In this document: positions 3,148 through 13,632 of the stretch, piece after piece
Layout of the letters: every line of letters starts with the position of its first letter
Position numbering within the stretch: position 1 is the stretch's first letter
From: Pseudomonas sp. IAC-BECa141
GTDB lineage: Bacteria > Pseudomonadota > Gammaproteobacteria > Pseudomonadales > Pseudomonadaceae
DNA: 64,000 bases
NCBI RefSeq assembly: GCF_020544405.1
Contig: NZ_CP065410.1
Span: forward strand, 3,038,001-3,102,000
Reading direction: 5' to 3'
The notes under the pieces: model-generated
What the model was told of the DNA's origin: nothing
What the model saw: only the letters and a program-made list of their open reading frames with translations
Database searches by the model: none
Made by a program: the position numbers and the translations under genes

Positions 3148-3231
3148 TGTGGGAGCGAGCTTGCTCGCGAATGCGTCTGGTCAGGCAGCATCAATGTTGA
3201 ATGACACACCGCTTTTCGCGAGCAAGCTCGC
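3148..3231. repeat. REP doublet (REPIN), right half interrupted by IS110
   Basis: Two inverted copies of the Pseudomonas REP core lie head to head: CTGTGGGAGCGAGCTTGCTC beginning at 3148 and the inverted TTCGCGAGCAAGCTCGCT ending at 3232. The second copy stops abruptly after GCTCGCT, and its expected remainder CCCACAGG is found at 4409-4416, on the other side of the IS110 element. Together these rebuild one REP doublet of about 95 bases that was split by transposition. Confidence 0.9.
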
Positions 3232-3244
3232 TTGTATGCTGGTA

Positions 3245-3397
3245 CTTGAAGGGAGGAGGAGGGACAAGGCTCGATTCTGACTGTTGGCGCAGTACAGATC
3301 CGTGGGAGATTTCTCCCCTCCTCCTTTCACCCAAGCGCCGATAAAGAATGCATCTGGCTAGACCGACGATAGGAACAAGCCTGCGCCTCTGGGTGAG
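3245..3397 (+). ncRNA. Candidate IS110 bridge RNA
   Basis: Two consecutive stem-loops lie in the left noncoding end. The first stem pairs the purine-rich GAAGGGAGGAGGAGG (3248-3262) with CCTCCTCCTTTC (3317-3328). Its loop holds GCTCG (3269-3273), identical to the left target, and GTGGGAG (3302-3308), complementary to the right target including the CT core. The second stem pairs CACCC (3328-3332) with GGGTG (3391-3395) and GCGC (3335-3338) with GCGC (3383-3386). Its loop holds AGAAT (3345-3349), identical to the right end of the element at 4402-4406, and ACAAG (3375-3379), complementary to CTTGT at the left junction (3231-3235). These are the four guides expected of a bridge RNA that pairs donor and target DNA for the transposase. 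RNA ends are estimated. Confidence 0.75.
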
Positions 3398-3435
3398 CCC
3401 TTCAAGTGCTCAAAACCATATCTCGGGGGTGTTCA

Positions 3436-4383
3436 ATGGCAATGTCGGTTTCTGTTTCCAAGCCAATCGTGGGCGTGGATGTCGCCAAAGATGAGCTGGT
3501 GATCTACCAGACCGAACTGGATCTGCTGGAAACGCTTCCCAATAACAAGCCAGCCATCAAGAAATGGCTGAAAACCTTGCCGGCACCGGTCGACATAGCA
3601 ATTGAGTCGACCAATATCTATCACTTGGAATTCGCCGATCTGGCCCATGATGCCGGCTGCACGATTTACATGGTCGGTGGCTATGAACTAAGCCACTACC
3701 GCAAAGGTGTGAAGGTTCGCGCCAAAACCGACGCGCTGGATGCAAAGCTGCTCGCCCGTTATCTGAAAAACGAATATGAAGAGCTTCACCCATGGACTCC
3801 ACCATCGCCGCTGTATCGTCAGCTCTTGAGCCTTTTCCGCCGGCGCGCCGCGCTGGTTCAGGCACGAGTTGGCCTGGTACAGAGCTGGGCAAATGAGCCG
3901 CTGCTCAAAGCCGCTTTTGCCGAGCAAATAGCCTCAATGCAGAGGCTTGAAGTGCTGGTCGAGAAGATGATCAACGACCTCCTTAAAGAGGCCGGTTTAC
4001 TTGTCCATCTAAGGCGCTGCATGAAAGTTGAAGGCATAGGCTTTTTGACTGGAGCTCGCCTGATCGCGGCGTTTCAACGGGGCGAGTTTAAAAACGCTGA
4101 CGCATTCATCGCTTTTTTGGGGATGGATTTACGGGTTTCACAGTCGGGGCAGAAGGACGGTCGTCGCAGTCTGACAAAACGAGGTGATCCGGAGGCGCGC
4201 CGACTTTTGCACAATGCAGCCATGTCGGCCAGCCGAACAGCGACCTGGAAAGGTTTTTATGAAGAGCAACGAGCTAAAGGGTTCAGCACCACTCAGGCAC
4301 TGGTGATTCTGGCCCGTAAACTTGCTCGGGTCGTATTCGCACTACTAAAGGGGCAGAGCGAATACCAGCCGAAAGCAAGTTGA
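3436..4383 (+). CDS. IS110 family transposase (recombinase)
   Basis: A 315-residue IS110 transposase. The N-terminal RuvC-like DEDD domain shows Asp15 (VGVDVAKDE), Glu57 (AIESTN), and Asp99 and Asp102 (KTDALDAK). The C-terminal Transposase_20 domain contains the EGIGFLTGARL helix-hairpin-helix-like segment and the conserved AAMSAS motif with the likely nucleophilic serine. The frame is open from a GTG at 3406, but the ATG at 3436 has the better ribosome site (GGGGG seven bases upstream). The reading frame is intact, so the element may be active. The protein would act on donor and target DNA together with the RNA encoded just upstream. Confidence 0.92.
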   Translation: MAMSVSVSKPIVGVDVAKDELVIYQTELDLLETLPNNKPAIKKWLKTLPAPVDIAIESTNIYHLEFADLAHDAGCTIYMVGGYELSHYRKGVKVRAKTDALDAKLLARYLKNEYEELHPWTPPSPLYRQLLSLFRRRAALVQARVGLVQSWANEPLLKAAFAEQIASMQRLEVLVEKMINDLLKEAGLLVHLRRCMKVEGIGFLTGARLIAAFQRGEFKNADAFIAFLGMDLRVSQSGQKDGRRSLTKRGDPEARRLLHNAAMSASRTATWKGFYEEQRAKGFSTTQALVILARKLARVVFALLKGQSEYQPKAS

Positions 4384-4408
4384 GGGTTTCCCCTAAACCA
4401 TAGAATCT

Positions 4409-4571
4409 CCCACAGGGAGGTGGTGATCCGACAAACGGCCGACGGTCGGTTTTCACACTGGCCAACCACACGTTGTCTACAGTGAAAAAGTCGGCACTCA
4501 AGTGCCGCAACCGTGATTGTCCAGAACAGACCCGGCACCAGTACCGGGTTCCACCTGATCAGGAGTGCACG
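4409..4571 (+). promoter_or_regulatory. fdnG upstream leader with two hairpins
   Basis: The 163 bases between the IS110 right end and fdnG contain two perfect hairpins: CGGCAC-TCAA-GTGCCG at 4492-4507 and ACCCGG-N8-CCGGGT at about 4530-4549. Neither has a T-tract, so they are not obvious terminators. A ribosome-binding site AGGAG at 4561-4565 precedes the ATG at 4572. I see no convincing Anr box or sigma-54 promoter here. Because the IS lies immediately upstream, part of the native control region may have been displaced. Confidence 0.4.
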
Positions 4572-7500
4572 ATGGATCTCAGCCGTCGTCAGTTCTTCAA
4601 GGTCGCCGGTATCGGCCTTGCAGGCTCTAGCCTGGGCGCGTTGGGCATGGCCCCGACGCTGGCCTTCGCCGAGCAGGTGCGCCACTTCAAGCTTGCCCAC
4701 ACCCATGAAACCCGCAACACCTGCCCGTATTGCTCGGTCGGTTGCGGGTTGATCATGTACAGCCAGGGCGATGCCGCGAAGAACGTTGCGCAAAACATCA
4801 TCCATATCGAGGGCGACGCCGACCACCCGGTCAACCGTGGCACCCTGTGCCCGAAAGGCGCGGGCCTTCTGGATTTCATTCACAGCCCCGGCCGCCTGCA
4901 GTACCCGCAGGTGCGCAAGCCCGGCAGCAGCGAATGGACCCGGATCACCTGGGACGAAGCCCTCGACCGCGTCGCCGACCTGATGAAGGCCGACCGCGAC
5001 GCCAATTTCGTCGAGCAGAACGCCCAGGGGCAGACGGTCAATCGCTGGCTGACTACCGGTTTCCTCGCGGCGTCTGCAGCGTCCAACGAAGCGGGCTACA
5101 TCACCCACAAGGTGGTACGCAGTCTCGGCATGCTGGGGTTCGATAACCAGGCGCGTGTCTGACACGGCCCGACGGTGGCAAGTCTTGCCCCGACGTACGG
5201 CCGTGGAGCCATGACCAACACCTGGACCGATATCGCCAACGCGAATCTGATCCTGGTGATGGGCGGCAACGCAGCAGAAGCCCATCCTTGCGGCTTCAAA
5301 TGGGTGACCGAAGCCAAGGCGCACAACGCCGCGCGGCTGATTGTGGTCGATCCGAGGTTTACCCGGACCGCGTCCGTGGCCGATTACTACGCGCCGATTC
5401 GCACCGGCAGCGACATCGCGTTCATGGGCGGGCTGATCAATTACCTGCTGACCGAGGACAAGATCCAGCACGAATACGTGCGCAACTACACCGACGTGTC
5501 GTTCATCGTCAAAGCCGGGTTCGGCTTCGAAGACGGACTGTTCACCGGTTACGACGCAGCCAAACGCAGCTACACCGACAAATCCACCTGGGGTTACGAA
5601 CTGGGTGACGACGGCTTCGTCAAAGTCGACCCGACCCTGCAGGACCCGCGCTGCGTCTATCAATTGATGAAGCAGCATTACAGCCGCTACAACATCGACC
5701 TCGCGAGCCAGATCTGTGGCATGCCGGTCGACGCGATGAAAAAGATCTGGGAGGAAATCGCCACTTGCTCGCAACCGGGCAAGACCATGACCATCCTCTA
5801 TGCGTTGGGCTGGACCCAGCACTCGATCGGCTCGCAGATCATCCGCAGCGCAGCCATGGTGCAACTGTTGCTGGGCAACGTCGGCATGCCCGGCGGCGGG
5901 GTCAACGCCTTGCGCGGGCACTCGAACATTCAGGGCCTGACCGACCTCGGCCTGCTGTCCAACGCGCTGCCGGGTTACCTGACCCTGCCCACCGACATGG
6001 AGCAGGACTACAACGCCTACATCAAGAAACGCACGCAAGTACCGCTGCGGCCGGGGCAATTGTCCTACTGGCAGAACTACAGCAAGTTCCACGTCAGCCT
6101 GATGAAAGCCTGGTACGGCGCCAATGCCACCGCCGAGAATCAGTGGGCCTACCACTACCTGCCGAAACTCGACATCCCCAACTACGACATCCTCAAGGTG
6201 TTCGACCTGATGGGGCAGGGCAAGGTCAACGGCTACATGTGTCAGGGCTTCAACCCGATTGCCGCGTTGCCGGACAAGAACCGGGTGATGGCCGCATTGG
6301 CCAAGCTGAAATGGCTGGTGGTCATGGACCCGCTGGCCACCGAAACCTCGCAGTTCTGGGAACACGTCGGGCCGTTCAATGATGTGAAGAGCGCCGACAT
6401 CCAGACCGAAGTGATCCGTCTGCCGACCACCTGTTTTGCTGAAGAGGACGGTTCGCTGGTCAACAGCAGCCGCTGGCTGCAATGGCACTGGAAAGGTGCC
6501 GACGGCCCCGGCGAGGCGCGCACTGACGTGCAGATCATGAGTGCGCTGTTCCTGCGCCTGCGTGAGCGTTATCAGGCCCAGGGCGGCAAATTCGCCGATC
6601 CGCTGTTGAAGCTGTCGTGGCCGTACAAGATCGCCGAAGAACCCTCGCCGGAAGAGATCGCCAAAGAGATCAACGGCTACGCCACCACGGATTTCACCGA
6701 CGCCACCGGCGCGACGATCAAGGGCAATTCGCAACTGGCCGGGTTCGCCCAGCTCAAGGATGACGGCAGCACCGCGTCCGGCTGCTGGATCTTCTGCGGC
6801 AGCTGGACCGAAGCCGGCAACCAGATGGCCCGCCGTGACAATAACGACCCTTACGGCATGCATCAGCATCAGGGTTGGGCGTGGGCCTGGCCGGCCAACC
6901 GGCGGATTCTGTACAACCGCGCTTCTGCGGACGTCGCCGGCAAACCGTGGGATCCGAAAAAACGCCTGGTGTGGTGGAACGGCAAGGCCTGGGGCGGCAC
7001 CGACGTGCCGGATTACAAGGCCGACGTGCCGCCGGAGGCCGGGATGAACCCGTTCATCATGAACCCCGAAGGCGTGGCGCGGTTCTTCGCCGTCGACAAG
7101 ATGAACGAAGGGCCATTCCCCGAGCACTACGAGCCGTTCGAAACCCCGATCGGCATCAACCCGCTGCACCCGGAAAACAAGAAAGCCATCAGCAACCCTG
7201 CGGCACGGATTTTCGATTCGGTGTGGGACAGCCTTGGCGTCGCCAAGGATTACCCGTACGCCGCCACCAGCTACCGGCTGACCGAGCATTTCCACTTCTG
7301 GAGCAAGCACTGCAAGTTGAACGCGATTGCCCAACCCGAGCAGTTCGTGGAAATCGGCGAAGTGCTGGCCAAGGAAAAAGGCATCGCTGCCGGCGACCGG
7401 GTGCGGGTCACCTGCAAGCGCGGGTTCATTGAAGCGGTAGCGGTGGTGACCAAAAGGATCCGGCCGTTGCAGGTCAACAACCAGGTGGTGCACCAGATCG

Positions 7501-7637
7501 GCATTCCGCTGCACTGGGGCTTCACCGGCCTGACGCGTCACGGTTACCTGACCAACACCCTGGTGCCGTTCCTCGGCGATGGCAATACACAGACCCCGGA
7601 ATCCAAGTCATTCCTGGTCAACGTGGAGAAGCTCTGA
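4572..7637 (+). CDS. fdnG: Formate dehydrogenase-N/O alpha subunit, selenoprotein
   Basis: Catalytic subunit of the membrane-associated respiratory formate dehydrogenase, oxidising formate to CO2 on a bis-MGD molybdenum or tungsten centre at the periplasmic face. The product is 1021 residues including selenocysteine at codon 197, encoded by the in-frame TGA at 5160-5162 in the context NQARV-U-HGPTVASL. The N-terminus has a twin-arginine signal (SRRQFFK, residues 4-10), then Cys51, Cys54 and Cys58 (CPYCSVGCG) plus CPKG near residue 93, which bind one [4Fe-4S] cluster. The ATG at 4572 has AGGAG six bases upstream and matches the usual start just before the Tat motif. It leads an operon with the beta and gamma subunits, fdhE, selA and selB. 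An automatic caller would split it at the TGA; this is recoding, not a mutation, as shown by the SECIS and the sel genes downstream. Confidence 0.97.
5160..5205 (+). promoter_or_regulatory. UGA(Sec) codon and bacterial SECIS hairpin
   Basis: Directly after the TGA at 5160-5162, CACGGCC (5163-5169) pairs with GGCCGTG (5199-5205). The apical stem GGCA (5177-5180) pairs with TGCC (5186-5189) around the loop AGTCT. Lower stem, distance from the TGA and the GTCT-type loop agree with the known bacterial formate dehydrogenase SECIS element that recruits SelB with Sec-tRNA. It lies inside the coding sequence. Confidence 0.9.
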
Positions 7638-13536: not shown

Positions 13537-13632
13537 GGAAGGCAATCGCGCCCGGTGGCGCGGCCGGGCTTCAAACCCGGTTGGGGACGGCATCCGTTCC
13601 CGGGCAGGTTCGACTCCGGCTGCCTTCCGCCA
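13537..13632 (+). tRNA. selC: tRNA-Sec (UCA)
   Basis: A 96-base tRNA with the features of bacterial selenocysteine tRNA: an eight-base-pair acceptor stem (GGAAGGCA with TGCCTTCC), a long variable arm (13581-13603), anticodon TCA at 13571-13573 within the CTTCAAA loop, the T-loop GGTTCGACTCC, and encoded GCCA at the 3' end. It starts six bases after selB and is probably part of the same transcript. Its 3' end is eight bases from the stop of the convergent OprD gene. Confidence 0.97.

Follow-up and report, generated by a model that had tools for sequence, protein, structure and literature searches.

How an insertion sequence recognises the repeat in which it sits is the question raised by the window, the whole stretch of 64,000 nucleotides of Pseudomonas DNA that was analysed here. 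It contains an IS110-group element inserted in a REP sequence. From this one copy, a first-pass annotation had proposed that the left end of the element encodes a bridge RNA aimed at the REP. Bridge RNAs of IS110 and IS1111 elements, which covary with target and donor, have been published (PMC11208160; PMC11187229), and the bridge-RNA mechanism as such is already known. Less ordinary here are the closed fold predicted for the RNA and the way in which the guides are associated with the repeats of their hosts. We find it very probable that the left end gives rise to a two-loop bridge RNA whose guides match the REP and the element's own ends, and that this RNA directs insertion at the CT core of REPs.

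The element, its site and its guides

The element and its surroundings comprise the following features.

3148..3172, reverse strand: intact partner REP of an inverted pair (pattern match 3148-3160)
3226..3230, forward strand: left target GCTCG (REP)
3231..3232, forward strand: core CT of the left junction, common to target and donor
3233..4406, forward strand: IS110-group element, 1174 bp, with left end TGTATG and right end ATAGAAT, the ends being identical in the genome's four copies
3436..4383, forward strand: open transposase gene of 315 residues (PF01548 and PF02371)
4407..4408, forward strand: core CT of the right junction
4407..4413, forward strand: right target CTCCCAC (REP, including the core)

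The second REP of the inverted pair is the one split by the element. Its neighbours, by gene names read from the translations, resemble an aminotransferase gene on one side and, on the other, a formate-dehydrogenase gene that has a SECIS element. A TGA splits the reading frame of the latter into ORFs at 4473-5162 and 5175-7637, and the SECIS element (5157-5215) and a selenocysteine tRNA gene (13537-13628) lie close to this gene in the window.

As defined in PMC11208160, IS110-group elements have a long left end, a short right end and a short STIR. Here, 203 bases precede the transposase gene, 23 follow it, and a short STIR is present (ATA at 4400-4402 and TAT at 3235-3237). The marks of the IS1111 group, a bridge RNA in the right end and a long STIR, were not found in the element, as its right end has 23 bases and the RNA model described below matches the left end. 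The transposase scored 74.8 bits for PF01548 (DEDD domain) and 69.8 bits for PF02371 (Tnp domain), against cut-offs of 29 and 21.3. Its residues E57, D99, D102 and S237 align with E60, D102, D105 and S241 of IS621, where the offset in the IS621 chain numbering is our own reading. These are four of the five catalytic residues, and all of those within the aligned range are kept; the first D (D15) lies outside that range and was placed by motif. A search of plasmid records gave no named counterpart of the element among the best 30 of 1504 matches, which had 27 to 29% identity.

The copies within the genome were compared, as the first-pass annotation had suggested, and all four were found at the same REP position with different outer flanks. 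The copies differ at 4 alignment columns. In L004, the left flank follows the REP consensus only as far as CAAGCTCG. Across the genome, 282 uninterrupted instances of the 17-base site were counted, and 0 of its reversed control. Just upstream of the transposase start codon there are five G in the window copy (3425-3429) and six in L002-L004.

Within the left end, the guides and the predicted handshake bases (so named in PMC11208158) are placed as follows.

3269..3273, forward strand: left target guide (LTG) GCTCG
3302..3308, forward strand: right target guide (RTG) GTGGGAG
3309..3310, forward strand: predicted target-loop handshake bases AT, complementary to AT at 4405-4406
3345..3349, forward strand: left donor guide (LDG) AGAAT, matching the right end at 4402-4406
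3375..3379, forward strand: right donor guide (RDG) ACAAG, complementary to the left junction CTTGT at 3231-3235
3380..3380, forward strand: predicted donor-loop handshake base C, complementary to G3230

The handshake base goes beyond what the first-pass annotation had observed. The positions and matches that it gave for the four guides were borne out by a word search of 3245-3408, in which GCTCG, GTGGGAG and AGAAT each occur once and ACAAG occurs at 3375-3379 and a second time at 3264. In 100,000 dinucleotide shuffles of the same interval, the single guide words appeared in 1.9 to 22.4%. All four guides appeared in any order in 10 shuffles and in the observed order in 0.

The predicted RNA and its closing stem

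Since no bridge-RNA family of Rfam reached its gathering score in the window, a covariance model (R1) was built from 23 close relatives including the window copy. The predicted structure is given here.

3245..3408, forward strand: predicted bridge RNA with target loop, donor loop and closing stem (R1, 201.4 bits, sole forward match in the window)
3245..3253, forward strand: predicted 5' arm of the closing stem, pairing with 3398-3406 (pair probability 0.96-1.0)
3254..3263, forward strand: 5' arm of the target-loop stem, pairing with 3316-3325
3316..3325, forward strand: 3' arm of the target-loop stem
3326..3338, forward strand: 5' arm of the donor-loop stem
3383..3397, forward strand: 3' arm of the donor-loop stem
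3398..3406, forward strand: predicted 3' arm of the closing stem

The only other R1 match in the window is on the reverse strand (E 0.8). This check by covariance model was one that the first-pass annotation had suggested; the match covers the whole RNA extent that it had given (3245..3397) and runs slightly further, to 3408. R1 matched all 41 of the IS110-type relatives supplied, the least similar being L172 with 33% identity (E 0.0064), and 0 of 9 IS621-like loci. The absence of a two-loop structure from homologues had been named beforehand as grounds for doubt, and the structure proved to be conserved in them. Folding of 3233-3435, also suggested beforehand, gave a z of -2.01 with 7 of 200 shuffles as low, and folding of 3245-3412 gave a z of -2.79 with 2 of 200 as low. 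When the RNA is folded by itself, pairing predominates at several of the guide bases, which counts against the explanation that we favour.

Covariation was counted on a model-based alignment (A4) of 44 RNAs, 43 of them distinct and part of them also in R1. In its helices, 93.5% of the pair cells are standard. Double-sided changes were seen in 37 of 44 pairs, compared to a shuffled mean of 18.0 with 0 of 500 as high, but A4 was fitted to the structure and this favours the count. Sliding the partners by 1 to 3 columns as a control left 7 to 13 pairs with double changes. A consensus fold predicted de novo on A4 contained 29 pairs, 27 of them with double changes. Two other alignments were set aside: a MAFFT alignment (A1), in which the target-loop stem was misaligned between subfamilies and which A4 replaced, and a model alignment (A3), which contained reverse-strand matches and was excluded from counting.

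The closing stem would pair the 5' end of the window element's RNA with its 3' end, a closed fold that is so far predicted. Seven closing-stem pairs are invariant across 54 Pseudomonas left ends, so it is the changed pairs of the wider set that provide covariation evidence for the stem. Within the element, 12 bases precede the closing-stem arm, and the stems of the two loops follow each other directly. When three distant relatives (L165, L167 and L172) were folded, the minimum-energy fold contained a local 5' stem-loop and not the closing stem. In L165 and L167, the strand able to close the RNA with the 3' end also forms this stem-loop and, because one strand serves both folds, the two are mutually exclusive; a switch between these modelled folds is possible. 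A promoter search at the junction gave weak candidates only, TTGAGG-15-TAGAAT and TTTCCC-18-TATGCT.

Guides, targets and host repeats among relatives

A match at E up to 1e-40 was carried by 56 of 398 Pseudomonas genomes. Up to 5 candidates were scored in each genome, which makes the copy numbers minimum values (at least the number given), and the copies analysed are part of those listed. From 148 placed matches, 135 copies from 47 genomes entered the guide-target test. The 13 omitted were two presumed same-genome repeats (L007 and L008, taken to be from the genomes of L056 and L021), six duplicates (L015, L015.1, L017, L080, L080.1 and L141), L066 without the left-end motif, L135 without the right end, and L043, L045 and L130, each a lone copy from a genome that is not among the 42 in which REP variants were counted (see below). 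The better of two guide registers was chosen for each genome (the second for G128 and G383), and this slightly favours own matches.

Over these 135 copies, the left guide 5-mer and the left target had an identity of 0.915. When the left guides were shuffled among genomes, the mean was 0.752 and the maximum 0.814, with 0 of 5000 shuffles as high as observed. The 5-mer was fully identical in 96 of the 135 copies and identical or G.U in 107. One or more non-pairing left bases were present in the other 28, which counts against guiding, and the mismatch extends across whole lineages (G011/G216/G254, G245, G301, G364 and all three G139 copies). The first-pass annotation had named copies with the same loops at unrelated targets as evidence that would tell against it. 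Such copies were not the rule, and what stands of that objection is these 28 copies and the different flank of L025 described below.

The right target is almost constant, and its pairs were 936 of 945 Watson-Crick, 6 G.T and 3 A.C. Where the right guide changes, the right target mostly changes as well. In G094, a new left guide together with GTAGGAG faces AGTTCG-CTCCTAC in 4 of 4 copies examined (of 5 listed), and the right pair GTAGGAG/CTCCTAC recurs in the more distant L146, L167 and L171. Against this, the right guide of G080 has one A.C mismatch in 3 of 3 copies. The right side had 6 G.T versus 3 A.C, but A>G differences (26) exceeded G>A (18) on the left side, and a wobble rule for the mismatches was dropped.

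According to the cryo-EM description of IS621, the base after the right donor guide pairs with target position 7 once strands have been exchanged (PMC11208158). The corresponding donor-loop base could pair with that position in 132 of 135 copies. It is C opposite G in 129 copies and G opposite C in the 3 copies of G080; the 3 misfits are the G139 copies, which have T. The first target-loop handshake base is A in 135 of 135 copies.

Several flanks have peculiarities of their own. In L025 (G186), CTCCCACATTTGGTAGCT is found on both flanks of the element, so what stands to its left is no REP left half. A rearrangement, an insertion away from the target or an assembly error may be the cause. Two copies in G066 (L036 and L080) lie 1352 bases apart on the same strand with identical left flanks and may be a tandem duplication or an assembly effect. 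Beyond about 10 bases left of the core, L004, L048, L122, L038 and L139 have a piece of another palindromic repeat and not the usual REP, and these flanks may reveal how short a target suffices. The guides of G364 (L103-L105) and G301 (L106-L108 and L144) fit their own targets poorly; they may match an uncounted REP variant or use a shifted register.

Since the element ends are nearly invariant within the clade, the donor guides were examined in more distant relatives. These were 24 loci at 27 to 60% protein identity. Pseudomonas contributed 5 of them and other genera of the class 19; they are what was left of 27 loci with matches of at least 240 residues after three without the left-end motif were dropped. 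Their right ends were placed by motif, and L149, which is without a left flank, was scored zero for the left target. The left target, the right target and the left donor each fitted the RNA of their own element better than in shuffles (0 of 2000 as good for each). Within the 10 loci with a GTATC-type donor, the left donor again gave 0 of 2000, and the ATGG, ACGG and ACAG forms were mirrored in 9 of 10. Within the 14 loci of the ATAG type, the nearly constant donor class of the window element, 146 of 2000 shuffles did as well. The right donor, for which the 24 relatives offer no power, was equalled by 488 of 2000. The proposal of a bridge RNA aimed at the REP thus gained support from the comparisons of targets, left donor, handshake base and helices.

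Seven REP variants, chosen after the guides and targets were known, were counted in 42 of the 56 element-bearing genomes. The guide was identical to the host's commonest counted variant in 29 of the 42 (shuffled mean 11.8, maximum 21) and differed from it in 13, which counts against an association. The mean share of a host's counted REPs matched by the guide was 0.548, compared to 0.260 after shuffling (0 of 10,000 as high). Striking cases are G018 (ATTCG), G080 (CCGCC), G094 (GTTCG with CCTAC) and G385 (GCCGG). On the best transposase tree of 47 rows, the left guide changed at least 18 times. Close relatives carry different guides (GCTCG in the G000 clade, GCCAG in its sister pair, then GCCCG in G252), which together with these changes indicates that the guides do change. 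Among 8 independent pairs, about 6.9 agreed with the target and 1.0 disagreed (median p 0.07); relative to the host's commonest variant, 5.7 were for and 0.6 against (median p 0.125). Allowing for ancestry thus leaves few pairs, which counts against the explanation that we favour, and the control for ancestry is only partial. Because the guides differ among relatives and usually match their own hosts' repeats, the element likely finds its landing sites by RNA pairing. Likewise, since the left guide has changed repeatedly and is usually identical to the most frequent REP variant counted in its host, the element probably goes on finding sites by following host repeats. No published account of guides following host REP variants was found in titles and the first parts of abstracts in a mostly open-access literature, bioRxiv preprints being outside it.

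Proposed mechanism, alternatives and known systems

What the sequence itself provides (the ends and the core, the guides, a conserved fold, an open transposase gene whose catalytic residues align, and guides that change together with their targets) can be set into a scheme modelled on IS621. By this analogy, the left end would be transcribed, and the element would leave as a circle joined at CT with its bridge RNA bound by the transposase. The left guide of the target loop would pair with the bottom strand of the REP and its right guide with the top strand, and the donor loop would do likewise with the circle junction. The top strands would then be cut after CT and exchanged.

Another way to account for the site would be that protein contacts alone recognise the REP palindrome and that the left-end fold merely controls translation of the transposase, similar to the proposal for the 5'-UTR of ISPpu9. 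REPs are indeed conserved palindromes, the folded region lies directly upstream of the transposase start codon, and a translation-blocking 5'-UTR has been reported for ISPpu9 (PMC8450116). However, recognition by protein gives no reason to expect that loop bases change along with the target, that the handshake base and target position 7 swap together, or that the loops match the ends of the element itself, and we consider this alternative very unlikely. It is scarcely credible that the guide matches are due to chance or to REP fragments captured in the left end. The single words are short and common in shuffles, but the four in order never arose in them, and the covariation extends over 47 genomes and 24 distant relatives.

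For the clade as a whole, the bridge-RNA reading can be taken further, in a form to which we give an even chance. The RNA would be a closed three-way junction, in which pairing between the 5' and 3' ends replaces the 5' stem-loop of IS621 and the two loops abut, and the target guides would have been reprogrammed repeatedly by the elements themselves as host REPs diverged, with the donor loop fixed and the guide serving as a record of the dominant repeat. The same RNA mechanism would operate if guides were not rewritten and elements settled only where the host REPs fit; only the evolutionary reading would differ. The guide-host association fits rewriting and sorting equally, and the 13 guides unlike the host's commonest counted variant are what would be expected of recent arrivals. 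Near relatives with different guides and the repeated changes on the tree argue against sorting, which we regard as a serious possibility, though short of probable. If the guides are rewritten, these elements are a case of natural retargeting that indicates which guide changes evolution tolerates, whether of a single target side or of both, while the donor loop stays nearly untouched. They offer a ready collection of guides with their matching targets for a compact Pseudomonas recombinase guided by RNA, and make it testable how a mobile element keeps pace with host repeats. It also becomes testable whether one closed RNA with both loops alters the scheme proposed for IS621, where a complex would take its two loops from two RNA molecules (PMC11208158).

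The bridge RNA of IS621 from Escherichia coli was demonstrated by experiment and cryo-EM (PMC11208160; PMC11208158). IS621 and the window element share the CT core, the two loops, the guide layout, the handshake bases, the DEDD and serine residues and a REP target, and the transposase matched the IS621 structure 8wt6 at E 2.3e-20. They are distant in sequence, however, and the donor is ATAGAAT in the window element versus the GTATC type in IS621-like loci. The IS621 RNA is described as having a 5' stem-loop and a linker between the loops (PMC11208158), whereas the window element leaves no room for such a stem-loop, its loop stems abut and a closing stem is predicted. Deletion of the 5' stem-loop is reported to have reduced IS621 recombination only slightly (PMC11208158). 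The best PDB match of the transposase was the IS110-family transposase ISCro4 (structure 9t56, E 1.9e-21), whose likeness is known here from that match.

Among elements of Pseudomonas, insertion of ISPpu9, ISPpu10 and ISPa11 into REPs was reported in 2006 (PMC1525189). ISPpu10 of Pseudomonas putida resembles the window element in host genus, IS110 group, predicted bridge RNA (Durrant et al. 2024, Extended Data Fig. 10c; PMC11208160) and location in a REP, found in 7 of 7 copies (PMC1525189). Known here by description, it may be very close to, or nearly the same kind of element as, the window element, and the closing stem may already be present in its published fold. ISPpu9 of Pseudomonas putida KT2440 likewise belongs to the IS110 family, targets REPs and has a structured region upstream of the transposase, but the small RNAs reported for it by Northern blot are Asr9, which is antisense, and Ssr9, which lies downstream of the transposase gene (PMC8450116). 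ISPa11, of the IS1111 group with its seekRNA, also targets REPs in a Pseudomonas with an RNA guide from a non-coding end; its RNA is encoded downstream of the transposase gene, in contrast to the upstream position in the window element (PMC11187229).

One relative, L043 (G091), has an open transposase gene and a 119-base left end with the target loop and the closing-stem arms but without a donor loop, and its R1 match is just 86 bases long. Judged by its sequence, it may encode a natural one-loop guide RNA that perhaps relies on the donor loop of another copy.
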